The notes beneath the pieces were generated by a model. It was not told the origin of the DNA, did no database searches, and was given only the letters and a program-made list of their open reading frames with translations. Below are positions 4,507 to 52,611 of a DNA stretch of 64,000 nt, in pieces (position 1 is the first letter of the stretch; each line of letters begins with the position of its first letter). The translations under genes and the position numbers were made by a program. The DNA comes from Lepidurus packardi (taxonomy: Eukaryota; Arthropoda; Branchiopoda; Notostraca; Triopsidae). The DNA is taken from positions 9,952,351 through 10,016,350 of the forward strand of contig JAKZAN010000006.1 of NCBI GenBank assembly GCA_023053545.1, written 5' to 3'.

Positions 4507-4545
4507 TTTTCCGGAATTCACTTGTATACCTATGTTACGGCTTTC

Positions 4546-4556
4546 ACACTGACTCC
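4546..4556 (-). promoter_or_regulatory. Possible initiator of the LRR gene
   Basis: Read on the minus strand this is GAGTCAGTGTG, containing the arthropod initiator TCAGT about 45 bases upstream of the ATG at 4506. No TATA box is clear. The distance would give a short 5' untranslated leader. This is a motif match only. Confidence 0.3.
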
Positions 4557-5182: not shown

Positions 5183-5485
5183 ATGGTTTGCGATAAATGC
5201 GAGAAGAAGCTAGGCAAAGTTATTACGCCCGATACATGGAAGGCTGGGGCGAGAAATACGACAGAAAGTGGAGGGAGAGCCGTAGGAGAAAACAAGGCTT
5301 TGACTGCAAAGAAAACCCGTTTTAACCCGTATACAGCAACGTTTGAAAAATGCCGAATTTGCAAGCAAAAAGTGCATCAAGTTAGCTCTTATTATTGCCA
5401 AAGTTGCGCTTATTCCAAGGGAATTTGCGCCATGTGTGGGAAAAAGGTTATTGAAACAAAGAACTACCGTCAATCAACTGTTTGA
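5183..5485 (+). CDS. CRIPT: CRIPT, cysteine-rich PDZ-binding protein
   Basis: A single exon encodes 100 residues (human CRIPT has 101) that align over their whole length. It opens MVCDKCEKKLGKVITPDTWK and has the family's zinc-binding CxxC pairs at C3/C6, C57/C60, C72/C75 and C82/C85. The tail QSTV is a class I PDZ ligand, like QTSV of the vertebrate protein that binds the third PDZ domain of PSD-95. CRIPT is also known as a small splicing-associated factor. The frame is open 20 codons further upstream, but the conserved start is the ATG at 5183. Just before it stands a pyrimidine-rich stretch ending in AAG, so a 5' intron is possible. The lack of coding introns could mean ancestral loss or a retrocopy; every key residue is kept, so the gene looks functional. 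Confidence 0.96.
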   Translation: MVCDKCEKKLGKVITPDTWKAGARNTTESGGRAVGENKALTAKKTRFNPYTATFEKCRICKQKVHQVSSYYCQSCAYSKGICAMCGKKVIETKNYRQSTV

Positions 5486-15800: not shown

Positions 15801-18800
15801 CCCGTGACCTTCTTTACCTGACGGCAAAAGAAACGTTGGAAACCAGAGCTCATGACTTCCTGTCTAGTGGTGATTGTGATTGTTACGTTAAGACGCCAAC
15901 ATTGATATGGTAGCTTTGCCAAAAAAAATGGTCTTATTTTCGTTTACCTTTAGGGAGTGTAAGAAGGAACATAAAGACAACCTACTTTCTTTACAACGAA
16001 TGTAATGAGAACAGATTGTTGTCACATTTACAATGAGTTTTTACCGGATTACTTTGCATTAGATTACAAATGATCATGTTTGTTCCAGTAATGTATGAAT
16101 TTTTGACAACGAAGTTAAAATAGAAACTACTCATATTTCATTGTTGTGAACAATGAAATTGGAGCCGAGTTTGACTTAACAAGTGAAGCAGATTTTCCAA
16201 CAGTGAAAATATTTTTAAAAAGGATTTTAACTGAGGAAATTGAGGATTGCGTAAGTTCCGTCGTTATAACAACGAAGTTGAAGAAACTTTCAGTCGGAGT
16301 AATCAAATTTTTTTCCAACATTGAAAATTGCAACGAAGTTTAAACTAAAGAGAGCTTTCGCTGCGTTCTTGTCAACAATGAAATCGAAGCTTTTGTACTA
16401 ATGTACCAATTCAAGTCAAGAATCGTATTTAGAAAACAGGCTTCTTTAACTGTTTCTCTCAAGAAACGAGAAGTTCCATTTAAAATTCAAAGTTTAGTTT
16501 TATTGTTGAGTTGAGTAGTTTCTAAAGACGAACTACACTTGCTATAGGATGTTATATCGTCTACTGCTCTCTTTCCAGTTTTATTGTTAGCAACAATTAA
16601 GGGTCCCCTATTCCTTAGCTCGGTTTAAGCCGTTAGTATACGGAATTTCGGAACAACTTTTTGAAGAAACCAGTACATTTCATGAAAGAATTCTTTGACA
16701 ATAAGCTTGATCTTGCCAACAGGTAGTACCTAATCAATGCACGTTACTCATAGCTATATGCAAATTAAATTTGAAACTATGAGAAATACGTTGCCTAAAA
16801 ATCTGTCCTTTGATTGCGCAGTAGCTGCTAACAAAGAAAAGAAAAATTTTGTTTTCAGTTATTTTCAAATCTGGCAAGCCGTTTTTGAGAAATCTTGTTC
16901 CGAAAGTTTGACGACTTAATTTTGAACATTGTGCTGCTACAGCAAACCGTGGTGACAAATTGAACTTCCCGAAGCAAAACACGCTTAGAAACTTTGCTGG
17001 CAATTAGATGCCTATTTCTTTTCTTACTTTCTTACGCAAGGCTTTCTCAAAACAATGACAAACATCAGTGCCATCTATGATTGCTTCGCGTCAATAAGCT
17101 AAGTATACGGGAGCCTTTAAGTGATGCGACTTTGAACCTTATTAATTCTAACTCGCAAAGGTCAATACTGACCTTTGCGAGTTAGAATTTTTATTAAAAT
17201 CTTTGGACGAAGAATACCAATAAGGTTTATTTGTAATGGTTTGGGTGATGTTTAAAAAGCAGTGAATTAAACTTTCTTGCTTTTGTCGCAAAAGTCCTCT
17301 TAGGATTCTCCCAAAGTAAACCTGTTCTATCAGGTCAACTTAGTGAGCAGTACATTTTCCTTTTTAATTAAAAGCTTATATTGTTTTAACCTTATTGTTC
17401 TAAGCTTTAACCGGTATTATTAAAATCGCAAAAAAAGTCAAATACTTGTCTTTGTCTTATGTAAATTTGCATATTTTTATGACAGTTTGACCTAGACAGC
17501 AACAGGACGTGACGCGTGCTAATATTCTTCTTTTCTTTTGTGTGTTCTTTTTTTCTTGGTTGCTCACAGTTGTACGGTAGTTTTATTGAATCCTCGGAAA
17601 AACAAGCAAAGTTATCTCCAAAATGCCAACCGAAAGACCATTTCAGCGCTGAGTTTTTCCGCCGATGGCCGTTATTTAGCAACGGGAGAATGCGGTCATC
17701 AACCAGCCTTACGAGTCTGGGATTTGCAAGAACGTGTCCAAGTCGGCGAATTCACCGGGCACAAATTTGGGATCGTCTGCGTGGTAAACTCTTATACAAC
17801 TAGATTTTTTCCATTGTAAAATCACCGTAAAAAACAACAACTAACGCTGGGAATATTTTTCGTTTAATTAAAAACAATGATAGGCATTCTCACCGAACCA
17901 CAAGTATGTGGTATCGGTGGGATCCCAGCACGACATGATCGTCAACGTCTGGGATTGGAGGGCGGGCACTAAAGTTGCTTCCAACAAAGTTTCTTCCAAA
18001 GTCAAAGCTGTCTCCTTTGCTGAAAACGGATCCTATTTTGTCACGGTGGGCAATCGGCATGTCAAATTCTGGTATTTGGAGTATTCCCGATCCGCCAAAG
18101 TAAGACAGAAGGCCATACAAACCTTATGATAAATATTCATAGATATTTCGTTTCATTTATTTTATTGTTATTATTCTTTACTAGTATAAAGAACCAGTAC
18201 CGTTAATGGGACGCTCGGCAATATTGGGTGAACAGCGCAACAATTATTTTTGCGACGTTGCCTGTGGAAGGGGTGAAATGGGCGATTCCACTTATGCGAT
18301 TACCAAATCCGGGTTATTGTGCGAGTTTAACAATCGACGTCTTTTAGACAAATGGGTTGAACTAAGAGTGAGTTTATTTAACGTTTTAGATCCAATTCGT
18401 GAAATTTTGTATACATTTTCCGACATAATTTACCTATTGATTTCATTTTTATTACATTTCTCTAGACGGCTAGTGCCAATTGTTTGGTGGTTGGAGAGCA
18501 GTTTATTTTCATTGGATGTGCCGATGGCATCGTCCGCTGTTTTAGTCCTTTTACGTTGCAGTTTGTGACGACTTTACCCCGTACCCATTATTTGGGAGTG
18601 GATGTAGCCAAAGGACTATCAATTAGGTAAGAGTCCGTTTCCGCCTATAACTAGAAAAAGGGGTAAACGAGAATCTGTAAATAATGTTCGATGTTCTAAA
18701 TGGATAGTCACATGGCGTCTCATCCGGCGAGTGCGCGTTATCCGGATACAGTAGCCGTCACCTATGACGAGACACACCACAAAGTAACGTGTGTTTATAG

Positions 18801-21800
18801 CGATCGAAGTTTGTACGTATGGGACGTACATGACATCCGGAAAGTAATGAATTTTCTGTCTATTTTTCGTATTTTGGTATCTGGTATCCTGGTTTTTTCT
18901 GGGAGAACCATATGGCGTAAACTGATTGGGCTTTTCTTATCATCCTAGGTGGGCAAATCCCATTCGTTTTTATACCATGCAGCCTGCATATGGGGGGTGG
19001 AAACCTACCCAACGTTACGAGAAGGCATGAAGGGCGTTTTGCCAGCTGGCTCATTTGTCACGTGCTCGAGTGACGACACGATCCGCATCTGGAACCTAGA
19101 TGCCAATATGAGTACAAATACTTTGTACAAACGCAATATTTATAGCAACGTAAGTTGAAAACCATGAATTTCCTTTTTTCTTTTTTTTTCTTTTTGCTCA
19201 GAAAGGCCAAGTTCAAATGGTTAAGTTTAAATTATGTTTAAGTAATGGTTATGTTTAATTATTTAAGTTTAAATGGTTAAGTTCAAGTTCAAATGGTTAA
19301 GTTCAAACGAGCGTTTTTTCAGGTTTTACTTACACGTATCAATGATATTACATTTGGCTTTTAGGAGTACATTATTATGTTTGGATTTATTTACATTTTG
19401 TAAAATTTATTTTTGAATTTTGAAAAGACTGAATGGACCCTTAAATTTTCAGGAATTACTGAAAGTGCTGTACGTGGATTCCGATTTGACGTTTCTGAGG
19501 GACCAAGATTTGGCCGCAGGTGGAAGTGCGGATAAAAGCGAAGGTACTTACGACGGACGTAACGGTGTGAGATGTATTAAAATCAGTCCGGATGGCAAGC
19601 ACCTTGCTTCTGGAGATCGAGCTGGCAATATTCGGTAAGATAAGTTATCAACTTATTTCAGTTTATCAATTTATTTACTCAATTATTTGATTTTTCTGAG
19701 GGGAGCAATATTAACGCGATTTTGTTGGATTTAGAATCCACGAGATCCAGTTTATGGACCAGCTCTTCAAGATCGAAGCTCACGATGCTGAAGTGCTTTG
19801 TTTAGAATACACCCGACTCGAGTCAGGGTTAAGATTGCTGGCCTCTGCTTCTCGCGATCGACTAATTCACGTATTTAGCGTGGATCAAGGCTATAGCTTT
19901 CTGCAAACCTTGGACGACCATTCGTCTTCCATTACAGCTGTCCGGTTCCTGCACTTGCAGGGAGTGACGCAGATGGTGTCTTGCGCGGCTGACAAATCGG
20001 TAATTTTCCGCCAGTTGCAAACTACTGGTCCGGCCAGCCCTCCACAGTTTACACGCGAACGAAATGTGGTGGGCAAAACCACCTTGTATGACATGGAAGT
20101 GGACCAAAGTCAAAAACACATCTTAACAGCCTGTCAAGATCGAAGCATTCGGGTGTACAATACCAGTACTGGAAAACACAGCAAAACCTTCCGTGGAGCT
20201 GTAGGCGAAGACGGTACTCTCATCAAGGTATGAATGCATGTAACTTTATAATGTTCCAAGATGTCGGCCTTTTGCCCGCGAATTTTTTTCCGTCTCGAGA
20301 AGCTTTCTTGTTCCCGAGATACTGAAAATTCTTTACCACTTGCGCAGCACTGATGTATCCACCAAATAGCGATTTGCGGTCTTGGCCATTCGTGGTTCAC
20401 GGCTCTGTGACGTCATTCGGAAAGAACGGAGTTTTAGCGGGTTTTTAGCCTTTTCCACGGAATGTACATAGACAAAAATCGAAAAAGCATAGAGCAGCTA
20501 CTACATGAAATACTTCTTTTTGCGTATTAATTTATATATGTGTACTTCTTCGCGTAATAACTCCAATTTTAAACAAAAAGTGCTATTAGTAATAATAACT
20601 TTTGTTGGTTCTGGATTTTTCAGCTCGTTTTGGACAACAGCGGGTTATATGTGGCCACAAGTTGTACAGACAAAACCCTTTGTATCTATGATTATTACAG
20701 TGGAGAGTGCTTGGCTACTATGTACGGCCATTCCGAATTGGTAACGGGCCTTAGATTCACTCCAGATTCGAAGCATTTAATTTCTGTTTCCGGCGATGGA
20801 TGCATGTTTGTGTGGCGTGTCCCACACGAGATGACCATCACTATGCAAGCCAGGTTGTCGCAGCAAGCAGCTCGACAGGCTAAAGATTCCAGGTAATTTG
20901 TGAGACAGTTTGGTTAAAAAGACTGTATTTGACGTTTGTTTCTTTACAGTAGAATGGATTATAGTTTGCCCAGACATGAAGTGAAAATTGACAACGAAGA
21001 ATTTGGGTCCCCGCCTCCTGAAATGCTGGATCCTAATGCAAATGCTGATGATGCTTTAGATTATCGGTTAGCAACATATTTTAGTTTTCGTAATTTTTTC
21101 ATTTTTTAAAAAATAAATATTCGGTACTTTTAATTTTATATTTTTTTCTTTTTTAGTTTTACAATTGTACCTCATTTCTTCCCATTTAATGTCTTTTTCA
21201 ATTGAAACGAAATTATTTTATAGTTTTTTAAATAATAATAATGTAAAAATGTCATGTATTTGATTTTTGTGTGTGCTAGGTTTAGTGTTGGGCCTCTTCC
21301 GTTATGGGCCAAGAAACAGATCGCAGATGGGAAAGGAAGTAAAGGGTCCTCAGCGGGAAGTTTAGCGAAAAACGTAGATTTCCCTAAAGGTCGATGGGCG
21401 CAACGTGTGGATACTTCAGGACCGGGAATTACTGTCAAGTCATTTTACCAAGGCGACAGCGTTATTCCTTTTCCAGCTGGACAAGGTAAAATTCTAAAAG
21501 CACGTTTGAAAAGATAATAAAAGGAATTTTTTTCTAATGTTGTTGTTGGTTTAATAGGTGGAGATAAGGCGTTGGCGGATTCTGATGGATCTAAAGATAG
21601 TTCCCTTGAAAGTACTGAATCCAGGAACTATGGCGAATTCCGCATGCAGCTCAAAGAGGCAAGAAATCTTTGAATTTCCAAGAAATCTTAAAACAAAAAG
21701 ATACCATCAATAAACCAGTCAAACTTTTCGCTTTTTATGCATGTGTGATATTCTTATTTTTTTGGTACCCTACCTAACTCTTGCATATTGAATGTGCATG

Positions 21801-24800
21801 TGATAGGACGTTGACGAGTTTACCCCTGACCCTCGTAGTCTGGATGAAATTGTTCGTGGTTACCCTTCTTACCAGGTACTATAGTAAAACCTTTCCGCTA
21901 ATGGCTTCATTCTAACGCAGTTTGTATTCTCCCTCCTAGTAACCAATGATTTTCTGAATATTTTTAGGAATTATTTGCTCCTTTTTTTATCTTTTCTTAA
22001 ACTCTATTGTTTGTCTCATTTATTGGTTTTATTTTTATAAATGGGAAGATTATTGTTTAGTGAACACTTCATAATATTTTTATTTCTTAACAATCATTTT
22101 AAGCATTTTTTTTTTTTTACTTGTAGGGCCCGGTGTCTCGAATTACTCGTCGTGGGGGCGAAAGCTCAGCGGAAAGTGGGCGTGGCCGTACCTTAACTGA
22201 CGATAGTAGTGCGTCAAGTCTTAAGATGGAGGTAAAAAACGAGAAGTATACAGAAGGACTCCATGTACCCGACACAAGGACGTCGGGTCTCGACAGAATG
22301 GACCTGGCGTCCTTCTGTTGGGCTCGGCATCCTTGTGTCGGGGCCCTGCGTCCTTGTGTCGGTGTCCGGCGTCCTTGTGTCGGGTACACGGAGTCCTTTT
22401 GTCGAGTCTTCCTTGTGTCGGGATGACTAAGAAAGAACCATTTGATTTTTCACTAATTTTTTTCTAAAAATTTTAGTAATTTATTCTTTATCAATACTTT
22501 CGCTAGGATTTCGAGGGAACTGAGCATGATGGCGACGTGGAAGATTATTCTGACAACGACGGCAACTCCACCGAGCCAGAGCATCATGATAGACTGTTAT
22601 ACTATCCCCAAAACGATGATGGTAGCAGGTAATACTTCAAACACTGGCAATTTTTTTTTTAAGGAACTTAAACAATTTGGTTTCTTTTAAGCAGAGGTAT
22701 TTTATTTTTATTAGTTTTTATTTCTTATCAAATTTTTTTGCTTGCTTCTGCAGATCTTACTAAAGATTTTTTAAAGTGAATTTTTTTCCTTTTTTCCTCT
22801 TAGATTTTATAGTTATTTAAGTCTTATGAAGTATTTTTTTCTAGTGACTATACAGTGAATGCTATGGACGTAGAAGAGCTACGACGTTCCCAACGACGAA
22901 TGAAAAAGGGACGAAACCACGATTTGGGATTACATCTCCCGTTGATTCAGTCTGCTGTTTCTGTGTCTGGATCGCAAGATTCTGATGAGGAAGACGAAGA
23001 AGTATCAACGCCCTCTGGCGAAATACCTGAGCGCAATTTCGCTTCCATGCTTTCCGGAAGGTAGATCTGTTCTTTCTAATTTTTTCTTTTTTTATGGATT
23101 ATTTATTTAGTTTCTTTTTTGGGTCTAATGTGTTTGTTTAGATCTAATATGTTTGTTTTCGCTTTTTTAGTACGGAGAGCTTAGAGAGGGTTGGAAGAAG
23201 GGAAACGTTCCTGAAAAGCACTTTTGAATCCTTGAGTGGGCCAGCAGTTACGTCTCTGAACGATTCAGGAGGAGATAAAGACGATAACAAACCGTCATTA
23301 TCTTCCCGTTTTCTCACTCGCAGCTCTGCCTCCCCTGCGCCTCAAAATGCTGAGGTTATCAACGCAGCTAAAGCCACTCAGAAGGACCCCGAAGCTGCCA
23401 AGAAACGTGAAGAGTTGCAGAGACGCATCGAAGAAACTCGCCGGAAACTACAAAGTGTAAATATTTCCCTCTTTTTTATTACATTGTTAGTTCCTTTTAA
23501 TTTCATTATTAGCTCTATCATTCCGTTCAAGTCTTTAAAAATTCTTTTAGTTTCTTAGCTTTTTGACTTTGCGTTCATTTCAAGTGTTTATTTACGTATA
23601 GTGGTGCCTCGCATAACGAACGCAATCCGTTCCAGGACGGCTTTGATTCTGATTCGTTCCCAAGGTCGATCCAAAATCGCGAAAAATCTTAACTTCGCGT
23701 TACGACAGTGTGGATGCCACTTCTTTTCTTAACAGTATGAAACCACCCCCTACTTGATTTGAACTCTTCTTCCTGTTCTAAAGCTTGTGAGCTTGTTCCT
23801 GGAGTGATCTATTGAACTCTTCATACATGACCCTAGCTTTCTCACAAATTATTTCTAGCGTGGTTAGATCTCCTTTCATTTGCCTTTCACTAACCCAAAT
23901 AACAGCAACCTCTCCATTTCATCATTAATCGATTTTCTGTGTACCTGTGAAGAAACACTTGAGACTCCATTGGCCACCTTTTAGCTTTCGCGATTGATTC
24001 TCTATTGGCTAAAATTGTTCCAATGGTTGACTTGATCACTCCATGTTCAGCTGCAGGATCCACAACTCTAGCTTCTGAGTCTTTTTTGTTTCATTTCAAT
24101 TATTTCATTCTCAATTATTTTATTTCAATTATTTCTTGCTTCAGTTCAATAGTAAGTGCTTTTCTACTCTTCCAACTAACGGTCTTCTTAGGTGCCATTT
24201 TGACAACACTAAAAAAGCACTGAATTTCCCAAAAATTTCAAATGTAAAAAAACAACAGCGCGCGTGCGGTTCGTAAAGCGGGATCGCGTTCGTTATACGG
24301 AACATTTTCCGCCCCGCGGGCGCGTTTGTAATTCGGAATGTTCGTTATGCCAGGCACCACTGTAATTCTATTCGTGTAACAATTAATTGAATTGATTTAT
24401 TTTCTTGAACTCAAAAACTTTAACGATCTCTCAAGTGTAATTTTTTTTAGTACATTAGTATACATTATAGTTTCCCTTGCAGAGTCGCATTAGCTTCTTT
24501 TGATTCCTTTTAAGGCATTCCTTCCTAGATACCCGTCCAGTGATTAGATAATTATATTTTTAGAGAAAAGAGTTAAAGTAAAGGGTTACTGATTTCCATT
24601 TTATTCATTAGATTTATTCCTCCTTCCCTGTTCTAATTAATTTATTGTCAGCTCTCGTGTCTTTGGTTCTGTGAGAGTTTTTTTTCTCAATAATTTTAGT
24701 AATTTACTTGAGTTTGTTAAATATAATGTTCGTTTCTTGTCCAGATTGGGTACAAATCGACGTTGAAAAGCAGTCAAAGTATTAGCGATCTGAGTCGGGC

Positions 24801-29031: not shown

Positions 29032-29049
29032 TTTCAATTCCTTACTAAA

Positions 29050-29840
29050 TAGTAATTGAGGATCTCAAGGTTTCTAAAACCTATTCCTGCACTTGTAAAC
29101 AAGATAACGCACCTTTCAGGCCATAAGAAACGAACATGGTCCCAATCCTCATCGGACAGACCGATTTGTAGAAATGCCTTTCCGACATCGGCTGTAACTG
29201 CAAAGGGTTGGATGGAATCGGAGAAGGATGGCAAGCAAATCATTTTGAAGAGGGGGCCCTGGCTCAAGACTATCGTTGGGGCTCGATCAGGGGCGTCGCG
29301 AGGGGGGGGTTTGGGGGGGTACACCACCCCCCCAATAATTGGCCAAAAACCGATTCGGTAAAATTTGGGTCGCCGTCGGTAAAATTCGGAAAATGAAAAT
29401 AAAACGAGTATTATTCAATAAATCTCGAAAAATTAAAGGAAATAACTACGATAATAACTGTTTAAATCTTTAATAGTCGATAGAAAATATAAGATAGAAA
29501 CTATAATACAGTCGGTAAAATCGTCAACTACAGTCGGTAAAACTAAGGTCTCCACCCCCCCAATGGAAACCCCCTCGCGACGCCCCTAGGCTCGATGCAT
29601 TGGCTTTGCAAGAGCAGTAAAAAACGAAGCGGATTGGTGTAGTCAAGGAGTAATTACCGGGTGATACGGAATGTAGTGGAATGCAGTATTTCTGACATCA
29701 CGGGAGGTGATGTCACGAAGCTTCGAATCTTTCTATGAATCCCTTGGATTCATAGTCACGGATGACTTGAGCGTACTGTTCAAATAGCTCGGAGTCCCGG
29801 TTTTCTATTTTGAAAAAATCAAGCTCGGATACAATTTTTT
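29050..29840 (-). mobile_element. BEL/Pao LTR retroelement fossil (reverse transcriptase region)
   Basis: On the minus strand stretches such as ELFEQYAQVIRDYESKGFIE, YIPYHPV and ADVGKAFLQIGLSDEDWD are typical of the pol gene of BEL/Pao elements, just before and within the reverse transcriptase domain. No LTRs, gag or integrase are seen in the window. The piece is a broken fragment with several disruptions and is split by a later hAT-like MITE at 29288-29588. Its decay suggests an old copy. Confidence 0.8.
29288..29588. mobile_element. hAT-like MITE with 8-bp target duplication
   Basis: A 301-bp element starts CAGGGGCGTCGCGAGG and its reverse starts TAGGGGCGTCGCGAGG. It is flanked on both sides by the 8-mer GGCTCGAT (29280-29287 and 29589-29596). 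Inside, TCGGTAAAA occurs four times, like subterminal transposase-binding repeats. There is no coding capacity. An 8-bp duplication with CAGGGGCG ends indicates the hAT superfamily. It sits inside the BEL/Pao fossil and is therefore younger. Confidence 0.88.
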
Positions 29841-30798: not shown

Positions 30799-31606
30799 TC
30801 AATGTTGATCTCCATTGACCAGGTGACTTGGTCTTAGTGTCTTTTGCAACACGTGGGCGTCCGACGGCTCAATTCGTTTGTAGTAATGTTCTTTCGTTTC
30901 CACGATTTCAAATCCAAACTTCTTGTAGAAGTCAATGGCACTATCATTGTTCACTTGAACGTGACTTTCAAAAACAAAAAAACACGATTAGCATGACTAA
31001 TAAAATTTAATTTACCAAGAGAAAATCCTTACAGGAAGATACTGTCAATGTTGCCATCCTTTTCCACAACGTTTAGCACATGCTCGAGCATCTTAGTGCC
31101 GATTCCTCTTCTTCTATAAGGAGCTAGACAACCCAGTGTCATTATGTACAGTTTTCTTGAGCCTTCAACCACGTCAATGCGACAACACACTGCCCCCACG
31201 ACGATGTCATTGTAATAGGCTAAACATAAACAAAATAAGCATAAGAAAATACTCATAACGATTTAATTTAAGAACTGTTTATTAAGACCAATTCATGAAG
31301 ATAAGAGTAATGATTACCAAGTTTAGCCAGTTCTCCAGCTTCGAGTATGTCCTTGTAGAACTTGTCATTGTAAGACACCGGAAAGACAACTTGGTTGAGT
31401 CGTTTCAGCTGTTTTATGTTATGAGGCGTCACATCTCCCAACTCAATCGTTGCCCTAATTAGTTCAGATATACATGGTCAAATACGCAATTAAAGAGTTA
31501 GTTTATGTGTAGATTAAGTTCAGCCGCATGGCCAAACTCTGGAGCCTTTCATACGAGCAGCTAGACAATCGGGTAAAAATTAAATGCTGAAAACTAACCT
31601 AGTCAT
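30799..31606 (-). CDS. Naa50: NAA50 / San, N-alpha-acetyltransferase
   Basis: Exons 31606-31599, 31454-31318, 31219-31033 and 30964-30799 join in frame to 165 residues (human 169). The protein aligns end to end with NAA50 and with fly San, including the start MTR(A)TIELGDVTPHN. The substrate pocket F27, P28, V29 and Y31 is present, as are the catalytic Y73 and H112 and the acetyl-CoA loop RRRGIG (84-89). The enzyme acetylates N-termini starting with Met, associates with the NatA complex and is needed for sister-chromatid cohesion. The first coding exon is only 8 bases (ATGACTAG before a GTTAGT donor), which is why it is easy to miss. Its neighbours upstream on the same strand are the let-7-complex microRNAs. 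The short C-terminal tail is poorly conserved in the family. Confidence 0.95.
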
Positions 31607-32016: not shown

Positions 32017-32902
32017 CTTTGCTTTCGCACATCTTTTATATATTTAAAAAAACTATAAATATCACGAAAACCGCCCTTTAATTCAGAAACCACTTGCACA
32101 TTTTAATGTATTAAAGAAGACACGTTTCAAGAGGAAGCGCACCCCCCAAAAAATAAGATTACTTGAATGAGATTCTCAGGCGTTGTCTTTTTTGGACTGG
32201 ACAAAATGTATTCCATACTTAAGCGGCCAAATACAAACCCGTTTTCCCAGTATAGTTGTTTCCTTTTTTTATTTGTTTATAAAAACCAGTACCATGGGGG
32301 AAAGTTCTAGGTTTACGCTCGTGTAAATAGCAGAGAAAACCCCCGAAGTGTTGCTTATAGGTTGTCTCCCTTCGTATGCAAAGGACTTCTTAAAATGTAT
32401 ATAAATTGGAGGGTCCTCAAAAGGTTCGCCGTGGTTGTGAACAATTGTCAGCTTAGTAAACGGAGGGGAAAAGTATTTTGCTTCTGCTATTGCCCCCAAA
32501 AAACTTGCCGTATGCTTCTCTACACAGTTCTGTAGTATCAACAAGTAGTAAAGAAAAAATAATAACAAAAATAACTAGAAAAGAAACAAGTTAGATACAA
32601 CGTTGTTTTGCCCAGCTCCGGACTTTGGATTATGACTCGCTGGACACTGACAGGAGGTATATAGTTCAGCCAAGGTATACGAGTACACGCCGGGTTTAGA
32701 TCGCAAGATACGAATCACTAGAAAGGGAGGAACACAAAAGAAAAACCCGAATCCTTGGGGCATGTGATCGCAACAGCAACACGTAACTATAGCTTCTTTC
32801 AGAACTATTTTAAAGAGATGGTAACGTACCGTACAGGAACCCCTTTGACACACCGTTTTACTCCCTTTTACTGTCGTTTTGATTGTGGAAGATGAGCTGA
32901 TG
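32017..32902 (-). other. Spacer between NAA50 and miR-125
   Basis: No gene is recognised. It must hold the NAA50 promoter and possibly the 3' end of the let-7-complex primary transcript, which runs toward NAA50 on the same strand. Confidence 0.5.
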
Positions 32903-32962
32903 CCCATACCTGAGAAGCTAGCCTGTGAGAGGTTATCACAAGTTAGGGTCTCAGGGAATGGG
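32903..32962 (-). ncRNA. mir-125: mir-125 precursor
   Basis: The minus strand carries the miR-125 5p sequence, TCCCTGAGACCCTAACTTGT with GA following, at 32957-32936, identical to the fly microRNA. The 3' arm (CACAGGCTAGCTTCTCAGGT, about 32926-32907) pairs with it around a loop of about seven bases. The outer CCCAT and ATGGG close the stem. miR-125 (founder lin-4) represses heterochronic targets such as lin-28 and chinmo in known systems. It is the last member of the let-7 complex here, about 4.8 kb after let-7. A long open frame (32575-33144) overlaps it by chance. Confidence 0.96.
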
Positions 32963-35900
32963 AAACAACTCGGAAAACCAGTAGACCAACAGTTCCGAAG
33001 GATGTGATCAATTAACAAGCTAAAAATACTCCGCCCTCCCAAAAAAGGAATTCCTAAACAATAAACCAATTGCATACAATTCGACCTTGGTTGATTTGTA
33101 GAAAGGTATAACCGCAATTTGAATCTAACCCGACACCAAAACATAAACGAATAAAAAAAATATCTTATGATAGCAGGTGCAAGTAGCAGGCAGTTAAGTA
33201 ATTAGAAAAAAAACGAACTACTAGGAGAAGTGTAAGTTAGAACTCGCCCCAACTTACGCGTGTAACAGCCATGGAAAACAAAAAAAAAGGAAAAAAGCTA
33301 TTTGGAGCAGGACGTTATAGTTAGCATTACCCAGCTGCCCAAGCATGTGTTACATCCTCCTGGATCCACGCATGCACGCAAGGACTGATAAGCCAACAAT
33401 AAAAAAATCTCATTCTAAGCCCGAACCCCCACCACCCAGCCCACATGGCAAAAATAATAAAAAAAATAATAACAAGATCCTTAAGGCTATGTGTCCAAAA
33501 ATGCTTTCTTCCGCTTTGCTTGCATTTAATTGCAGTTGAACTTCGTGAGCCACGCGTTTCCCCCCAATTTACACGGTCATCGTCACCAACATCATCTGCA
33601 CTGTCCACACTGAGCATAAATCCAGTCCATTCCAAAAACCATTCGTTCTGGTCCCAGGTGGTTGGTTATTCGGACCTGGTTACAGAAACTAATCCAAAGT
33701 CTGGAAAAAAAAGTAATCCAAAGTCTGAAAATAAGGGACAAAAAACGGAGGCAATATAGATAACATTTCTCCTTGGTTTAGCAATAGAAAAGATAAAAAT
33801 ACAAGTTATAACAATCATGTTAATTGGGCGTGAAGTTAGTCATGAGACAAGTCTTTCTCTTTCTCGCTGTCTGTCTCCTTACTTTTGAGGGTACGGGAAC
33901 GACTTTGCTAATACATGTACTTTACCAAAGGTCCATTCCACTCCACTTCTTTCGGTACACGGGCTAAACCAGTCAGCTCGCCAGACACTCACACCCACAT
34001 CTCGTTTTCTTTTTCTTATGTATTTTTTCTCCCCTTTTTTGTTTTCCTTCTTTTTAACAGGATGCCTAGTTTAGAACATCATCCAACCCACCTCCCCTCG
34101 ACCTCCCCATCACCGTACGGGGGCTTTTTTATCATGATGCATTTAAGCTGGCCTTTCCCGCTCCACTCCCGTTATATAGTGCCTGTCTCCAAGTCACGTC
34201 GACCCCCAAAAAGAGCCCCAGCTAAAGCACCCACAAGCCAAAAAAGGCCGTTGAACTCAGCTCGCCAACGTCCATGCCAGTCTTTCTATGTACGCTTCGG
34301 CGCATACGACGAAGCCGAGCACCATTTTGGCCCTGGCTCCCGCGTGCACGTAATTCACGAGGTTCCACAAACCGTACTCAAGACTTTTTCTTTAAAAAAA
34401 TAAAAAAAAAATCCCGGTCCTTTCGGCTTTTTAGCTTTCGCTTCTACACACACACATAGAGGAAAGTAGGGCTGGCATCAATCCATACGTCTGCCAACAA
34501 GACAAACTTGGAAGGGGACTTCGGGAGGAATCTTTTCGTTGCTTATGGAAAAATTTCGAGAAACTGTTTCTTCGAATTTGGTTTCTATTCACGCCTAAAT
34601 GAGGGAGAAAGAACAGTGTTTGAGTTGTGGTAAAAATAAAACAATTATATAGATATTTTGAATTAAAAAATGATTTTTTTACCATGAGAGGTTTCCAAAC
34701 GTTGCCTTAGCACTCCAAACAGGTGGTTTGCCCAGCATACGTAACTCAAGCCTACATACTGCCGAGAGCAAGACTTTCCGAAAGTCTGTCGCGTGTTTTT
34801 CCTTTCGCTCTCATGGCAGCTTACGTGCTACTGGAAATGTCCCGGGATCAGACAAAGAAGATATCAAGTTTACCAACGAGCCTTAGCATGAAAAGGAACG
34901 CTTGAGGTCACTCTACCATAATTAACAAATGGTCATTTGAAATTTACCAAAAGGTCCCGAAATGCTCAGCCTTAATTCGTCAAGTTGGTTTCCACTTTGT
35001 CTGACCTTCATTACTTGGTTTTAAAAAATTACAAAATTATCCCCCTTCAATAAACCAAAACATTCCACGATTATTTGAAAATTTGGATTATTTATAATTA
35101 TGTTAAAAGTAAACTTGGAATGTTTGACTTACAATTCGGAATTTGCTTATTAGATAAAGTATAGTCTGAAGGATTTATGTAAATTCCTAAGGAGTTAAAT
35201 CAACATGTTAGGATTTACAAATGCTTATTTCTTACTTAGCATTCTTAACTAATCAAAGAATGGTGAAAACTAAACTTCGCAAGTTTAGGTGAAATACGGC
35301 TTTCTTTCAGATTTAACTGTACGCACTCAATCGGATGTTTATCATCCTAGTCCTCTACCGTCGTCTGGTATCTTCAAACAGTACAGAATCACCGAAAAAA
35401 GGTAATTTGATTGTTAGGGGTAGGACACCAAAGAGCGTGGCTTTTGTTTGGTCGCAATTGGTCGCTGTTGCAACAAAAAATTATCCAATAATGAAAAGGA
35501 AGGAAAGGAACCTCTCAGTCTTTGAAGGATACTTTTGATTTAATTACTATCATTTTCAACAAAATTACTGGCAACTACTAGTACTATTTATATCCTATTC
35601 GTAGTGTAAAAATAACGTAAACTATATATCCTAGGAAACAGCTGAACTGTGGGTTTTGGTGCAATTTTTAAACAATGAAAAAGAAAAGGAACAGGAAATT
35701 TGGTTGTTCCTGGTTGCTCCAATGTTCATTGTTGAACGACTGCGATATCGTAATAAGCACGAAGGGAATAATGCTATTCGAGACACCTTAATAAAAATTT
35801 GTTTTAATCACGTTTTAAATCAAGTTTTAGTATATAACTAGAAGTATAATGTACAATATAGACAAATCAGTTTTCATAAACCTATACCTTCTACAACATA

Positions 35901-37749
35901 ACTAATTATAGATGCTGACTAAAGTCAACCAAAAAATGAAAAAAAAATACCCCCGAAAAGTACAAACAAACCGGCTGCTGGTTTTCCTTCGGACGCGGCT
36001 CGATACTTGCCACAGGAGTCGGTCTGTTCCTTGGGAAGACAACTTCCGCCAGGACAAGCACCGACTGTCTGGACAGAGGCGTCGTAAAATGCAAAATAAA
36101 AAAATACGCACACACACAAAAGAAGGCCTCACAGTACCAAACCGTCCGAACTACACAGCCTTTTACTCTTTCCCGCTAGCCAGCGAAACCACCTTTTTCA
36201 TCCCGTTAACTCCCCAACTTTCTTGCGTCGCGCAGACACCCTTGCTGTTCCAAAGCAGTTTTCCCCACCCCCAGAAACTCAATTTCCTTGATTGCCTCTC
36301 CTGCATCTCACAAACGCAACTTGAGGCTCTTCAATCTCAATCACAACAAAAAACCCTTAGGTTACCGACTGCCAGGCTTTTATACTAAACATTAACCTCT
36401 CATAAGTTTCAAATAATTCCCAAAATACTTTGTAATTTCTTTTTAGGTGTTAAAGTCGTAATATTCCTCTATCACGCATACACTAATAAGTTTAGGAGGT
36501 AGATTATTGAAGAAATAGTCCCGAAACTTGACACAGGATCAAAAGTATCGGACGAAAATGGCAATTTTGCAAGGTAAGCCAAACTTCTTCCTGGTCTTCC
36601 TTTCTCCATTGTTAAGAAAGGATTGGAAAACGCGGGTGGGAGAATTTTACCCCATTTATTGTCAGCACTTCTCCCCTTTTATTCTTCCTTCTCGTTTCTA
36701 TCGGCGCTCGCGACGCCGCCGCCGACGACGGACGCCGTTACTAAAGCCTGGATCGATAACAGGTCGCAGAGAAAGGAAGGGAGAGAGAGCCAGAAAGACT
36801 GAGGGGCCGCAGACCTTGTGTATAAATCTCCATGATGGCGCCGCGACGCTAAGACGCACGAGGAATATCACAACGCGTGAATTCGTCCGGAAGGGGGCAA
36901 GGTTTTCAAGTACGGTTTGGGCTTTGTTTCTTTGTACTGTACCTACTCACTCGCACTATATACATGCCATTTGGTCGTAGATGATTTTGTGATGTTACAC
37001 CTACACTCAACCCGAATCGAAGAATCTACACTCAACCAATCAAGTTCAATATACTACTACAATCAAGAGAAAATTCCATAAAAACACATTTATAGCATAA
37101 CAATGAAATGGACTTACCGATATGGCTTAATTGTATCTCCGTTGTCCTTACATACTCCATTAAATTCTAATCTGACTTTCGGGTTTAATTGGATAATTAA
37201 GCATTATAGTCCTATACTTGGGCACAAAAATGTGGTGTACACCCAAGCGTAACGTGTACGCCTAAGCAAATGCTAAACCCCTAATTGTAACCCCAAACTG
37301 AGACTTAAAATTAAAATTTTACGAATTAACATCAGTCTAAACCGCCAAAGAAGAATTCTGAATTGGCCCAAAGTTTAAGTAAAAAATAGTGAAAAAAATG
37401 TAAAAGACTTAACTTCAAACGAACGAAAAATAGAATTCGTCTTTTTAGAAAGAATACAAATTTTGGAAATAAAGTTACCTGCTCCTTGCAACCCAAACCG
37501 CCAACTGTAATTGTAGTTCTGAACCGTTCATAGCAGTCATAAAACAAAGCGTCCTATGTTAAAACATATGACTACAACTATTATAAATAATACTAATTTT
37601 CTTTCTTCTCCTTTCCCCCGTATTTTTTCTACAAGTATTGAGTTGCTATAAGCGTACCGCAGTTAATAATAATTCAACTAGAATCAGGGTAAGAATAGAA
37701 CATGAAGCACTTCCAAGGGTATTTGAAAAACGACTTGTTTGGATATTAG
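32963..37749. other. Spacer between miR-125 and let-7
   Basis: No gene or known transposon is recognised in these 4.8 kb. Runs of pyrimidines on the plus strand (about 33840-34060) give spurious frames. A GC-rich patch with CATGATGGCGCCGCGACGC and a CGCCGCCGCCGACGACGG stretch lies at about 36700-36860. This may be an intron or simply the body of the primary microRNA transcript. Confidence 0.45.
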
Positions 37750-37838
37750 GATTTCTCGGGGAAAGTTAGCAAGTTGTACAGTTTCGCCTGAACGGTGTAA
37801 TTCTGAACCATACAACCTACTACCTCAAACCGAGAATC
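37750..37838 (-). ncRNA. let-7: let-7 precursor
   Basis: On the minus strand the mature 5p arm lies at 37827-37806 and begins TGAGGTAGTAGGTTGTAT. The 3p arm (CTGTACAACTTGCTAACTTT, 37781-37760) is a typical let-7 star. Outer stem bases GATTCTCGG and CCGAGAAATC close an 89-base hairpin with a large loop, as usual for let-7. Position 19 of the mature RNA is G where nearly all arthropods have A, so the 22-mer equals vertebrate let-7c. The seed is unchanged. An open frame across the hairpin (37746-37985) is coincidental. Confidence 0.97.
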
Positions 37839-37934
37839 CGCTTTTTCAATCGTCCTTCTAGTGAGAACTATCTCAATTTCAATGGCTTTCCATCCCAATT
37901 CCAAAGCAGCAACTCCTTGACGCAGGTGGCCATC

Positions 37935-38018
37935 GTCAATATGCGCCCTTAGAATCGAACTTGCGAAAGATTGCAAAGTTGCCACACAAGTTCGGATCTA
38001 CGGGTTCAAACAAACGAT
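37935..38018 (-). ncRNA. mir-100: mir-100 precursor
   Basis: The mature arm AACCCGTAGATCCGAACTTG (plus TG) lies at 38006-37985 on the minus strand, equal to the common bilaterian miR-100; the fly form has A in place of G at position 9. The opposite arm CAAGTTCGATTCTAAGGGCG (37963-37944) pairs with it around a loop of about 20 bases. It is the first member of the complex, some 160 bases upstream of let-7. Precursor ends are estimated from pairing. Confidence 0.95.
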
Positions 38019-41000
38019 ATTTTCGACCCAAAACATTGCATGCCGGAAAAAAATGTGGGCTCCGGTTATGCCGTGTAATGTAGTATACTGTGTATATATG
38101 TTTTCACTTGAGACGGCGGCAGATTGATTTTCCATTGAAGAGTGGGCGTGTCCCTCTCTCTCTGTCCCTCTTTCTTCTCCCTCTCTCGCCTTCTCTTCGG
38201 GACTCTCTATAGCAGGTTCAACAGCACTGCCCTCCTTTAGCGTCCCTTGACTCCTCTGTCCTTTCAGTAAAGAGGTCCCTGAAATGCACGAGTTATTAGG
38301 TTCCAATTCCAAAAATCTCGACGCGTTATCACTTCCATTTTTCTGATTCCTTCTTCGTCTGATTATAGAATTTCCTCATCTTTTCTATCTTCTATCTTCG
38401 CACCCAGCAAGGTAATGTAATCCAACGTCCAAGGTACAACCTTTCTTCTCGAAGCTTCTTCTTTTAGCCACACGAGTTCCCACCTTCCTCTCCTAATCCA
38501 AAAATAAACGCCAACATCTGAATCGAGTCTTCGAGTCAGCATCGAATCCAAATCTTCACCAAACTATTCACAGTCTTCAAACACTTCATTTGAACCCAAA
38601 GTTTTTCTTCTTACCCCCGTCTGTCTTCGGTATTTCTTCAACATTCTCCAAATCTTGCTAACGTTTCGTTAGGATTCTTTGCTCCCCCACGCTCCACATA
38701 TGGGGCGCAAAGTGTCATTCCTTTCGCCAAAAGCTCTGCCAAAAATCTGCGCCAACCGTATGGCTTCAATTTTGGACAGTTACCTCCCTCAATTACTCCC
38801 AACCCAACCAATCCGCACTGGTGTCCTGAGAAACCCTCTCACAGCGGGGTTAAACCGACCCAAGAAGGGGAAGACTTGTGCCATTTGCCAAATCCGTGGC
38901 GTCGCAGATTTCCTTAAACGAACCCCCAACACCTTTCCCTTGCTTGCGGGTTACCGCAACGAGGGGAGAGGCAGGCTTTTCTAGGCTCGGTTGGTGTGAA
39001 CCCTCCCACGCAGAATCACCCTTTGCCGGAAGGTGGGGATTGGAATGCAGCGAAAAAAAGGGGTTATGGAACCCAAAGGGTTGGCTTGCAACTCGTTCGC
39101 GGTTGGATCTTGCGCGTCTTATTCTCTAGCCAAAACGTTTGAACCCTCCTTTTCCTTGCCATGCCAATCTAGCACCCTAGCACGGCAACAGGTTAAGCTG
39201 GCACGGTAGGGCCAAAGTTGTGTTTTTTTCTCCTTTTTTGCCCCCCTGCTCAAAGTCGGGACTTCCGAGTCGGTCCGGGACGCCTAACGTTGAACGCGGG
39301 AGCCAACACAACCCTCCTTGAAGCAGCCCCGCCTTGTCTGGCTCTTGGTTCGTGATCCACGTGTCTTTTGCCTTGAATTTTCATCCACCTCTCTCTCGCT
39401 CTCTTTCCTTCGTTCTTTCTTTGCCTGCTCTTTGGTCCTCTGCTCCCGCGGTTATTCCAGGTTCCATGAACGCGTGTGTCTTTCGCATCAGCTTCCATCA
39501 CTTTTACGCTTGTTTCCATCCGTCTAGCTCCATTCTTCATCCTCTTTTTCTCCTGGCTTTTCCTTCTCGTCTGTTCCTCTTCCCCGTCTGTTCAGTCACA
39601 TAACGTATGCATTGCGATGGCGCTGCCCAATAAACGAAAAAGAAAAAAAACGCTTCCCTTGCTATATACATAGAGCCTTTTTTCTTTTTGTCGAATACGT
39701 TGGACACAAAATCCCGCAACTCAAAAACTAGGTTTTCCTCCCAGCCCTTACCTATTCCCTACCTAGTGCATTGCCTCGTCCTTCAAAGCTTGGCCATCTG
39801 GCGGAATTTCTGGTCAAAGTCTCGAAAACGAGCATCAACAACCCAGAAAACTAAAGCTGGAAGGAAACACGTACTTAATTTTTGCAAAGAGGAAACCTTT
39901 ACGTGCGGTTTTTATGTTTTGGTGGCGTTGCTGAAGCTGTTTCCCTGGCAATCTTGGGGTTGGTTTGTCTCCATGCAGGCAGAATCAGGGCGTGAGAACG
40001 ACTGCAGCAGGTTTTTCTTCTGCTTAGGGATCTTTTCTTGTCTCGCGTATCAATCAGCTGATTATGCATCCATTTATCCTGATAAATTCGTGTTCCTTTC
40101 TGAAGAGACGAGTGATGATTTCTTTTCTTTTCCTTTGGGGAGGGGGATATTCCTTTTCTCGTTCATTTTTAAAAACGGACATGTATGCTAGTTCGGGAAT
40201 ATCTCTCTCTCTTGTCAAAGGCCCAAGGGGAAAAAGACTTAAATTAAGCCAAGAGGGCTGGAACTGTGAACAGCCTTCTTCACGAAGACAATGTCACATA
40301 ATGCCGTGCCTTGCTGGCTTTTACGGCTTAGTTTCTCCTTTTTCCGCTCTGTAATGGCACCTGCAACAAATAAAAAACAAAAAAGAGTTATGCACTGTAA
40401 TATCCAAAGCTTCACCAGACACCTACAGGCGTTAATAATGATTCCCAATTAAGTTAACTAGATTTACGCTATCAAACTGGAACAGTATTATCTGTTTGCT
40501 TACTGTGGAAATTGGTTTAATTACTACAGGACATTGATCACATTATTATTAGCATTAGTCCAGTTACTTAAAGTTACTTTACTGCATACGCGTATCTGTT
40601 GCTAACACCCGGCGACCCTATACACACAAAAGGGCGGAGGTAAGTAAGAAACACTCTTCGGAGTTTTACAGGAGCAAAAAATGGCAAATTTCCTAAGCCT
40701 AACCATCATACGTCCGAAAATTGAATTCGATTCCTTTCCTGTTCGGCTCTCTAGCCTACAAAACAGAGCCAGGTCGATCACGACTTTGGTTTCATCAGTA
40801 TGGTGTCTGATTTGCTTGAGACGAATAGGCCAATATCAAGTTCTCGGTCAAAAACTATGAATTGGAATGTTTCAGATCAAACACTCTACGTTTTTCCCCG
40901 CAACATTTACAATGTAGCTTTCTATTCGATCTCACTCAATCAAGATTTAAACCATTCTATAACTATTTCGAAGACTTTAAATATCATATTAATTACTTTT

Positions 41001-44500: not shown

Positions 44501-46100
44501 TATCAAAAACTCCCTAAATTCACATTTTTGGAGATCGCTTGGCTCTCCACGAGCGTGCGGAATTCCATCTAAGACTTTTTTCTGTGTTCCAACAGTAAAG
44601 CAAGACACTCCCCTTTACCCCCTGGAAGAAAAAAGGGGGGGTATATACCCATCACAAAAAAGGGAAAGGGTTAGAAGCTTATTGGACTCTCATGCCTGAC
44701 AACTCCTTCAAACGAATTCTTAAAAACTAGAAAAATGTAAAAGAAAAGTAAATTCTTTAAAAATTTTCAAGAATTTGAAAGTAAAAGTTTATATAATGAA
44801 ACAATGTAAGTTTAACCAAAATTTTTAAATGTATTAAAGTTAACATTTAAATCTCTAAAACGAGGCTTAAAGCATCTTAATTCAGAGTTTATAATTTGGC
44901 GAATTTTCAAAACTTCATTTCTTCTCGAAGCCTGCCAATTTTTAATAAATAAAAAACTAGAATAAAACTTCAAAAATTGGCGAATTTCTCGCATTTCCAG
45001 GGGTTTTCCGAGAAAGTTTTATTTGGTAGACGAAAGAAGAAAAACTCCCTATGTGAATGTTTAAAATCCTCCAAGTTCGCTTTGAAATAGAATTTGGACA
45101 TTCTATTTGGAAACGCGAACATAAGCAGTTTCAAGTTTAAAAAAAGTTTTCAATAACGTTTAGCGATTTCTGCAGAGATTAGCGCCAGCAATTGGCGTAG
45201 ACAATTCAATTGGCGAAGACTTTCAGAACATCTGTACCTTTAGGGAAATAACAAAAAAAGGAAAAGGAAACGAGCCAGGCAGGGGGAGCCCCTTAAGAAA
45301 TTAAACGAAACGAAACGGAAACCGTTTGCCTTTTGCTTTATAGTGGATAATTGGTTGTCCGCAGAAAAAGACCCCACACAATCTTTTCCTTTTTCTTTTT
45401 TGGTGTTCCATCCCCTTTCCAAAAATTTCCATTTCTAGCCGCAACGAGAAGTAGAAGAAACAGAAGCAGGTTAGGGCAACAAAAAAAAAGGTCTTTTTTA
45501 AATGTATAATTTCAGGCTCAACCGAGTTCTACATAGTGTTTTCCACGGGTGACGAAGACGCTTGTAACGAGGAAGGTAATTGAATCAACACGAACCGAAA
45601 ATCCTTTCTTGTTTCTCTCACCGTCTTTCCGACAATTTGGGAAAGAGGGAAAACTGGAATATCCCTGCACAACCCCTTTTTTCTTGCTTCTTGTGCTTTC
45701 CGTGAAATGGTGCAGAAAAACCCTTCCAAAGATGTGAAATTTGAGAGTATAAAGGGAAGCTTTTGCTTGCTTTTTCACGGTACTTGGATTTAATATTAAT
45801 GGTCCCTTCCGAACATAAAAAGGTTGGGAAGGCCAAAACCCTAGACGATACGAAAGGTCCGCTGGGTTTTTGCATAAGCAGTTCGCAAAAAATACAGAAA
45901 AATGCCCCGTTTTCCAGTTTCCAAAAGCTTGGCGAGATAAATCTAGACCAACTCGAAGTAACGTAAAAGGGGGTCATCCAAAAAAGGATTAAACGGCACT
46001 GGGGGTATTGCCGATTTTACAATGTGAATGTTTAAGTTTATATTTAGCGTTGTCTCCTTATACAGCACGTACTGAAACCTTCAAAGAGCGAGTGAGCGAA
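41576..46100. other. Gene-less stretch with one GC-rich patch
   Basis: No gene is recognised. A GC-rich patch at 41860-42300 carries two copies of the 26-bp module (41954, 42255) and a hairpin with 10-bp arms, CCGGACGAGT at 41966-41975 and its complement at 41993-42002. The rest is AT-rich with homopolymer runs; ACAGG repeats three times near 43165. Confidence 0.45.
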
Positions 46101-46104
46101 AAAA

Positions 46105-46740
46105 AAGCCGGAATAGCACCACGAGTCTGCAGCCAGTCTACAAGGGGCAAACGTTCGTTTAAGCTTCCAAATTTAATTGTCGAGTCTGGCGCACATGGGC
46201 TAACGCAGGCCGAAGTAGCGCTACGAGTTCCCCTAAGAGAATGTCGGAAAAACATCGGTAGTTTCGAACTTTTGGTTGGAACAAAATGCCCCTTTTTGTT
46301 CGAATTAATTCCTCGCGAACAATGTAAGGGAGCTAAGAATACGCCCGGGATAGCGGCACGGATCGGTCTGACCCAACAAGAAAACGACGGCAATATTTTC
46401 GTGGAAGGGGGGATACTATCTCTATTTAGCTCGCATTTAGCCTACATCGAAGCTCGACTAGAACAGGACTACACTAAACCTCTAATCGATAACTCTGTCC
46501 AAAACCAATTTCAGTTGACACGCTGGATGGAGTTTAAAACTAAAATTATCTGCTTAAATGTCAAACTCAAAAGTTTTTGGAAATCTGCGAACGTTTTTCG
46601 TTAGCGAGTTTCGAGCCTGCCCGGACTTGTAGCTTTTACCCCCGGTTGCTTGCTGCGTTTTCGTGAGTGGATAAATTGGACAGGAATGAACCCCGGGTGT
46701 CTGGCTAAGACCGAGCGGAGTAACGTTACGACTTCCCGGC
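46105..46740. repeat. Cluster of four 26-bp modules
   Basis: Modules at 46105-46130, 46207-46230, 46344-46366 and 46711-46740 share the pattern AAGCCG-AGTA-CG-TAC-AGT-CGG. Two keep a perfect 10-base palindrome, GTAGCGCTAC or GTAACGTTAC. They lie in GC-rich sequence and cause a 198-codon open frame that has no known match. Confidence 0.6.
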
Positions 46741-49700: not shown

Positions 49701-52515
49701 GTCTTGACGGAAGCCGTGTACGCAAAAACTGTCTGCCAAAACCCGGGTCTCATTTGCACGGCGTTTGCAACGTGGAATGTAATGGGTACTCGATGGTTCC
49801 GTATATGTAAAACCCGTGTGCTCCGCCCCGATTGGCAGGCTTGTGCCAATCCGCAACTTAAACTTATATTCACGCGGTCTCGCAGAACAGTTTATTCGTC
49901 CTAGTGGCAACGATTCCTTGACCTTTTTCCATTGCTTCCTTTCTGCTGTTGCTAAGAACCAAAAGGGGCGAAATCAGGAATCACCTGTATAAAAATACCA
50001 GATTTTAGACATGCGAAAACTGGAACATATAGGCATAATCAGAGTTTAAGTCATATTGAAAGCTAATAGAAATTAGTACATAATAGTAAGGATGGCTCGG
50101 CTTTCAGAGTCGATTTGCAAACATGGCGCAAGTAAAACTGGCGTTTTTAACGGTTGTTATGCGATTTGACAACGTCTGGCGGCAAAGTTGATAAGATATT
50201 CGACAGTTTAGTTAAAGATAACAGCTTTCTTGGTTCACTTATCGGTGTGGTTCTGAGGTTGTCTATTTGAAATAGAAGCGTTTCTGACATGTTTGCGAAG
50301 TTACTCTACGACGGTAGTTGCAGCAATGCAAACGCAGTGCAATGTAATGACTTTTGAACCATTTTCTCAAATGAGGAACATTTGTATTATTTGTAGCAAC
50401 CAGACGTCCTATTCTTGGTACACAAAGTACCATAGGCCTATAGCATAGTAGGCCTGCGATATTGTCTAACAAAGTGACAGTAACTTTAATCGCTATTTAA
50501 AAGGTTATCCTCAAAATTTAACCAAAAATCCCTCTTACAGTTCGTTCAAAATATATATGGAAAAGTGTGACAAACTACATAAGCATTTCATGATGCCGAT
50601 ATTTGTACTGATAGACACTTGTTAGTACTTACTAGGCCAGTGTTTAATGTCATTTCGATTACATCCCTTAGAAATGAGGAGAAAAGAGTACTAATCAACT
50701 CCTATTACTCTTGAATCTTCCTTTCGGTACAAAGGCGAAGTGAATGAAATATGGAAGTTATGCTAATCGCTAAGATTTGTATTAAGAATTACTAGTGAAC
50801 ATAACTGCTTGAAGGAAACTTAAGGAACTAAAAAGTACTGTTACTGTTAAAACGGGAATCCGAGCTTTCCATGAACCGCAATGTTTTAACTTGAACTGCC
50901 TGGACGCTCTATAATTTAACAATCTAACAAAGCGTATAATTGTTCACACGATTGACAGCTTTGTGCAAATCGATGCAAACAAAAGTATTTCTTTATGTGT
51001 TAATTGGTAGTTGAACTAAATTTGCATTCGTCAAATAGGGATAATCGTTTGCATGAAGCAAATTAAAATAACCATAAATGTCTTCAGTAACCGTTTCCCG
51101 GAATGATAAGCAACCAACCGTTGAAAATGCAGTACAATAAGAATCGCCATCCAAATGGTAATCTTCAGAGGATTGCTCAGAAACTTTTCTTGCTTTGCTA
51201 TTACTTCCGCAAAGTCTTACTACTATAACTGCCGTAATACTACTAAGACTAAAAGAAAGCTTCAAGTCCGACACATCTAACGTAAATAGAGACGATTAGG
51301 TTCTGACCAAGAAACAATTGAAAAAATAAATAAGTGAACAATCCAATCAGCAAACTCATCAATCTTAACACATTGAATTCATTGTAGTAGGTTATTAGAT
51401 TAGAGTTGAAATTTGATACCAAACAGTTAAATTAGTTTCGAAGCAATTGATCTTAGGAACTTATAAAAAGTTTTAATATTCAATATTTTGTTTCAAAAGT
51501 CACACAATATTATTGAACAATCCGGTAAAATCTACTTTGGGGTAGTTCGAAATCTTCAGTGCTACTCTGCCATGCGCACTGAGATCTAATAGACAGAAAC
51601 CATTAACATTACCATTGAACACTACAATTGAACATTATATTTCACTGGTAGGAAAGTATTCCATATTATGCTGCACTTAAAAATTCTTCCATTAATCCCC
51701 GACGCTACCTTGAGAAATCTCGAACAAAACTCAATAGATAATTAAATGAGTAACTTCTCACAGACCATACAGATTTGCCTAGGTAACAAGAGAATCCTCA
51801 GTGGGATCTTTGAACCCTGCAAACTTGAGCCAATAGGAAAGATTCTGTACCCCCCAAGTTCAACCCTAAACCCACTAGACTCTAATAGTGCTTAAGCTAT
51901 TTAACTTAGTTAATGAAAAATTATTAACAGGTAATGGAAAAACTCTTCCAGGTAATGTCATAAAAAAGAGGCTTCAATCAAAGCAAGAAAAGCCAAATTC
52001 GCCACCCTTTCTTACTTTGATTTCGTAATACAACTTGATTTCGTAATACAAACTCAGGATATCTTAGAAAAACTAACAAAACACTCTATTATTAGAAGTG
52101 TAACTTGAGTTTTTTGCTCTGTATAAGCTTCAGCTGCATGTTCTAATTCAGAACCACCTTTTGAGGCTTAAAAGCACACGACATGAAGAACCAGACTAAC
52201 GTTGCTAGGTGGATTATACATTTCGAGTATAATTAGGCCAATGAAAGAATACGATTAGAGGGATAAGGAGACACCTCCTCTAGTTCAGAAAAGAAAAAGG
52301 AAGTTACTATTACTTCTTGCTATTAAGATTACATAGGCGCTGCCCAGGACCACACCTTGGGTTGTGTGTTCGCGCATGCAATAAAAGAGTCAAGTTATTG
52401 AAAGCTTTACAGGATACCGGTGGTGGGCAAAAGATTAGCAACGCTTGTTGAAACGCTATAGCCACTGAACCCAGTACGTGTAGGCCCGCCAAACTTTAGT
52501 CAACCCAACTTGCCT
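46741..52515. other. Gene-less stretch with GC-rich islands
   Basis: No gene is recognised. CpG-rich islands lie at about 47560-47930 and 49590-49870. ACAAGATGGCGGC, a YY1/Pho-type promoter word, lies at 49312. A perfect 18-base palindrome, TGGTAACAATTGTTACCA, lies at 47454-47471. Any of these could belong to the unknown promoter of the let-7-complex transcript, but nothing shows it directly. Confidence 0.4.
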
Positions 52516-52559
52516 GCACTTACTTTCCATTATTCTATACAATAATGGAAAGTAAGTGC
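52516..52559. repeat. Perfect hairpin, 19-bp arms
   Basis: Arms 52516-52534 and 52541-52559 are exact reverse complements (GCACTTACTTTCCATTATT) around CTATAC. Confidence 0.9.
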
Positions 52560-52567
52560 TTAAGAGA

Positions 52568-52611
52568 GTTAGATTTGAGTTCGCAATTATAATTGCGAAC
52601 TAAAATCTAAC
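52568..52611. repeat. 44-bp near-perfect palindrome
   Basis: The halves match at 21 of 22 positions with no loop (centre GCAATTATAATTGC). It follows 8 bases after the hairpin at 52516-52559. Confidence 0.9.

Follow-up and report, generated by a model that had tools for sequence, protein, structure and literature searches.

The miR-100/let-7/miR-125 cluster has been described as conserved across most metazoans (PMC3763532), hence its presence is to be expected in a bilaterian genome. In Drosophila, where it is called the let-7-Complex, the three microRNAs have been reported to derive from one primary transcript (PMC8233039, PMC9247461). The length of this transcript is given as 2435 nt (PMC8233039) or approximately 2.2 kb (PMC9247461), it is turned on via the ecdysone receptor (PMC8233039), and its hairpins have been found to influence the processing of one another (PMC9247461). 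The spacing of the members differs among arthropods. Between miR-100 and let-7, Parhyale is reported to have a distance of 9.3 kb, Anopheles one of 3.8 kb and Tribolium one of 100 bp (PMC5111886), and the entire cluster of Bactrocera dorsalis is described with an extent of only about 0.6 kb (PMC4593211). Regarding its composition, the loss of miR-125 has been reported in a centipede (PMC4244043), millipedes are described to retain the cluster (PMC7523956), and duplicated clusters have been reported for some chelicerates (PMC4987109). A miR-100/let-7/miR-125 cluster has also been reported for Daphnia magna and D. pulex (PMC6828783).

The three microRNAs and their hairpins

The whole stretch of Lepidurus packardi DNA analyzed here, a window of 64 kb, contains a complete let-7 complex with all three mature microRNAs in the usual order on one strand and with pairing arms. 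This confirms the original prediction, according to which miR-100, let-7 and miR-125 can be read on the minus strand and each of them faces an opposite arm that pairs with it. The search of both strands of the window, in which up to 3 mismatches were allowed, returned exactly one match for each of the mature sequences. On the minus strand, miR-100-5p (37985-38006) and miR-125-5p (32936-32957) are exact 22-mers with 0 mismatches, and let-7-5p (37806-37827) is an exact 22-mer to a pattern that permits A or G at position 19. None of the three 22-mers was matched in 100 dinucleotide shuffles of the window. According to the Rfam alignment, position 19 of let-7 is G here and A in the Rfam consensus. 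The form with G at this position is presumably the one that was named let-7c in vertebrates.

In all three hairpins the mature microRNA is carried by the 5' arm, and the opposite arms pair and are intact. The folding of the three precursors, which had been proposed as a check, gave -33.6 kcal/mol for pre-miR-100 (minus strand, 37936-38013; z -4.70), -33.2 kcal/mol for pre-let-7 (minus strand, 37756-37833; z -4.52) and -33.7 kcal/mol for pre-miR-125 (minus strand, hairpin at 32899-32965, folded as 32895-32970; z -6.17). In each case the fold is far below the shuffled sequences, 0 of 200 of which were as stable. The Rfam search of the whole window at the gathering score returned two matches in total, let-7 (RF00027) at 37756-37833 with 54.1 bits versus a cut-off of 53.5, and mir-10 (RF00104) at 37936-38013, i.e. 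at the miR-100 hairpin, with 51.0 bits versus a cut-off of 47.5. The miR-125 hairpin reached 27.8 bits (E 0.0017) with the mir-10 family, which is under this cut-off of 47.5. The opposite strand of the hairpins also folds, as palindromic stems should, and the Rfam matches there are weaker.

Order, spacing and putative transcription of the cluster

Along the minus strand the order is miR-100, let-7 and miR-125, with 5' ends at 38006, 37827 and 32957. This arrangement agrees with the published cluster, so that the predicted order and strand of the ancestral bilaterian cluster hold for the locus, and the extent of 32903-38018 that had been assigned to it agrees with the mapped microRNA positions. 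The same three microRNAs stand in the same order and on one strand in the Drosophila let-7-Complex and, as reported, in B. dorsalis, to whose published mature sequences those found here are identical at 22 of 22 (miR-125), 21 of 22 (miR-100) and 20 of 21 (let-7) positions (PMC4593211). The loci differ in size. From the first hairpin to the last, 5.1 kb of genome are already covered here, compared to approximately 0.6 kb for the cluster of B. dorsalis and 2435 nt for the Drosophila primary transcript. The distance between the hairpins amounts to 102 nt for miR-100 and let-7 and to 4790 nt (4.79 kb) for let-7 and miR-125, and the spacer at 32966-37755 of the minus strand would be transcribed together with the hairpins. 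Wide spacing is shared with Parhyale hawaiensis, where mir-100 and let-7 are described as parts of one polycistronic lncRNA; however, the wide gap there lies between mir-100 and let-7 and here between let-7 and miR-125, and mir-125, which the report on that species did not identify, is present here (PMC5111886). The let-7 hairpin of 78 nt is short in comparison with the pre-let-7 lengths of 168 nt and 179 nt given for D. magna and D. pulex, respectively (PMC6828783). The locus thus lacks the long pre-let-7 of the Daphnia type, which speaks against either of these species as the source of the DNA. Because the spacing of members differs among species, as reported for the miR-100 to let-7 distances (PMC5111886), the 4.79-kb gap is compatible with the known cluster. 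Hence, the locus is a fresh instance of a well-known kind, in which the spacer between let-7 and miR-125 is wide but not startling. A single version of the inverted-repeat consensus of the ecdysone receptor had 0 matches in the window. Related loci were searched in two collections of viral contigs and one of prokaryote contigs, neither kind being expected to contain animal genomes, and each of the three gave 0 matches.

Indirect support for a long minus-strand transcript came from T-runs, defined as runs of at least 6 T and counted per strand. Over 31.6-64 kb, 44 T-runs were found on the plus and 102 on the minus strand (p 1.8e-6), and 40-64 kb alone showed 34 and 72 (p 2.8e-4), whereby single runs may not be independent. 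The bias is continuous across the cluster itself, with 7 versus 27 runs over 31.6-38.0 kb. In the WDR62-like region (16.5-28.5 kb) the T-runs are biased towards the plus strand (38 versus 14; p 0.0012 under the same reservation), i.e. they lie on the sense strand, and no significant bias was found in the gene-poor left stretch at 5.5-16.5 kb (24 versus 16; p 0.27). The best single change point was located at 26992, before NAA50 and not at the cluster, and 0 of 1000 permutations gained as much. The small NAA50 stretch (3 and 2 runs) and the bin at 56-60 kb (4 and 3) are unbiased. The T-run bias over 31.6-64 kb thus fits a long minus-strand transcript.

Unlike its surroundings, the stretch at 38-40 kb (38001-40000) has GC contents of 0.465 and 0.492 and is strongly purine-rich on the minus strand. 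It lies just upstream of miR-100 and could represent an exon or the promoter of the primary transcript. If the transcript starts there, the region 40-64 kb needs another explanation. The earlier claim that a long primary transcript should cross part of the right half of the window finds indirect support in the minus-strand bias over 31.6-64 kb, but no observation links these microRNAs to any transcription over 40-64 kb.

Taken together, the locus very probably represents an intact miR-100/let-7/miR-125 cluster of the invertebrate type, which would be expressed as one minus-strand polycistronic primary RNA yielding three guides from the 5' arms. Alternatively, the cluster might be split, with miR-100 and let-7 on one transcript and miR-125 transcribed from a separate promoter within the spacer of 4.79 kb. 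A gap of this length would accommodate a transcript of miR-125 alone, and both the large difference between the two hairpin gaps and the much more compact cluster reported for Bactrocera (PMC4593211) point in this direction. However, the published spacing of miR-100 and let-7 in arthropods covers the range from 100 bp to 9.3 kb, the Parhyale pair with the widest distance is still described as one transcript (PMC5111886), and the T-run bias is unbroken over the cluster, which makes the split unlikely.

It might also be considered that the microRNAs do not belong to an RNA gene of their own but sit in a long 5' part, composed of UTR exons and introns, of the neighboring gene for NAA50 (N-alpha-acetyltransferase 50). 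Three exon-like ORFs with PDB matches to NAA50 are situated at 30802-31477 on the minus strand, the strand shared with the cluster, and follow the miR-125 hairpin downstream at a distance of about 1.4 kb. A start of the putative gene was looked for and not found; near 31551 there is an ATG with codons for MKGSR, presumably as at the start of human NAA50, with no GT donor in the required phase. Against such a host gene, the arthropod clusters described in PMC8233039, PMC9247461 and PMC5111886 are RNA genes of their own, and we regard this arrangement as very unlikely. A single RNA gene on the minus strand that comprises all three microRNAs remains the preferred reading.

Coding content and further hairpins

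The absence of protein genes from the right half of the window had been part of the original prediction and had been explained by the microRNA transcript. None of the 141 stop-free ORFs of at least 62 aa that start at or beyond 32000 (131 + 8 + 2) matched Pfam. In the left half, at least 7 of 68 ORFs of at least 80 aa had a match (WD40 4, LRR 2, CRIPT 1), among 25 of 38 families listed. These matches belong to a neighborhood that comprises leucine-rich-repeat exons (minus strand, 3415-4566), CRIPT (plus strand, 5183-5482) and WDR62/MABP1-like WD40 exons (plus strand, strongest piece at 19715-20230). Within the WDR62-like region, a GC-rich tandem repeat of 21-nt units (plus strand, 22268-22404) forms a very strong hairpin of -55 kcal/mol. 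The minus-strand ORF at 29037-29414, which had no Pfam match, presumably resembles a fragment of a BEL/Pao retrotransposon.

Pfam silence is a weak test for gene absence, because a genuine gene that is cut into pieces of exon size often goes unrecognized by Pfam as well: among the three exon-like ORFs of NAA50, one passed the curated cut-off, one was weak and one had no match. ORFs of at least 100 aa exceed the shuffle mean in the right half (36 versus 10.2) and in the left half (30 versus 8.8), and since the excess is similar in both halves it may come from uneven composition. A score for codon use was trained on 925 codons from 9 exon pieces, excluding a tenth, out-of-frame piece at 17632-17790, with 38.4-64 kb as background. 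Among ORFs of at least 55 aa, scores of at least 0.15 were reached by 7 of the 180 left-half ORFs and by 0 of the 207 right-half ORFs. This test has little power, because the training exons are themselves counted in the left half, the right half served as the background, and held-out training exons scored only between -0.135 and 0.090. The highest codon-use score of the right half in this weak test, 0.149, belongs to a 203-aa ORF without a Pfam match on the plus strand at 45993-46601. Hence, the silence of all scanned ORFs in Pfam does not establish a right half without protein genes, and the claim is weakened by the behavior of the NAA50 exons and by an excess of long ORFs similar to that of the gene-bearing left half. 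It is plausible in part that the cluster may explain the apparently empty right half.

A hairpin screen of both strands of the window returned 53 candidates. The minus strand of the spacer accounts for 3 of these, compared to about 2 predicted from the overall density; hence, there is no hairpin excess in the spacer. The sensitivity of this screen is poor, because it recovered only one of the three known minus-strand hairpins, that of miR-125. The best spacer candidate, possibly an extra microRNA, is an isolated stem-loop between let-7 and miR-125 at 36008-36075 of the minus strand, and the fold of 36001-36085 has -33.0 kcal/mol and a z of -2.76, with 2 of 200 shuffles as stable. Weaker folds were obtained for the spacer candidates at 33315-33400 (z -1.62) and, picked by eye, at 34745-34835 (z -1.21). 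Rfam searches at E values of up to 5 between 32700 and 38300 returned no further microRNA family except antisense readings of the known hairpins; one match to a CRISPR repeat in this region (E 1.6) is attributed to chance. A fourth microRNA in the spacer was rejected in view of these results. It is highly improbable that the spacer has gained a co-transcribed fourth microRNA at 36008-36075 and that a primary transcript of at least 30 kb fills the right half.

Elsewhere in the window, a stem-loop far upstream of the cluster (minus strand, 56249-56320) has a z of -3.63, with 0 of 200 shuffles as stable and no Rfam match at the gathering score. Near-perfect palindromic stems at 52502-52621 and 55088-55160 fold on both strands and are possibly remnants of small mobile elements.

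Proposed expression model and meaning of the cluster

It is highly improbable that the locus is a degenerate or silent copy while the functional cluster lies at another genomic site, given three of three mature sequences and three of three opposite arms in intact form, even though the miR-125 hairpin scores below the Rfam cut-off, duplicated clusters are known in some chelicerates (PMC4987109), and the single occurrence of each mature sequence was established for the 64-kb window only. Judging from what is known about the family, the minus-strand polycistronic primary RNA would begin upstream of 38.0 kb and run past 32.9 kb, Drosha would excise the three hairpins, and Dicer would free guides of approximately 22 nt from the 5' arms. 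When expressed, these guides might repress target mRNAs in developmental timing.

The cluster raises no long-standing question. The description of a complete let-7 complex with a wide gap between let-7 and miR-125 is useful for annotation, and it provides a further example of how much distance can arise within the cluster while its order is kept.
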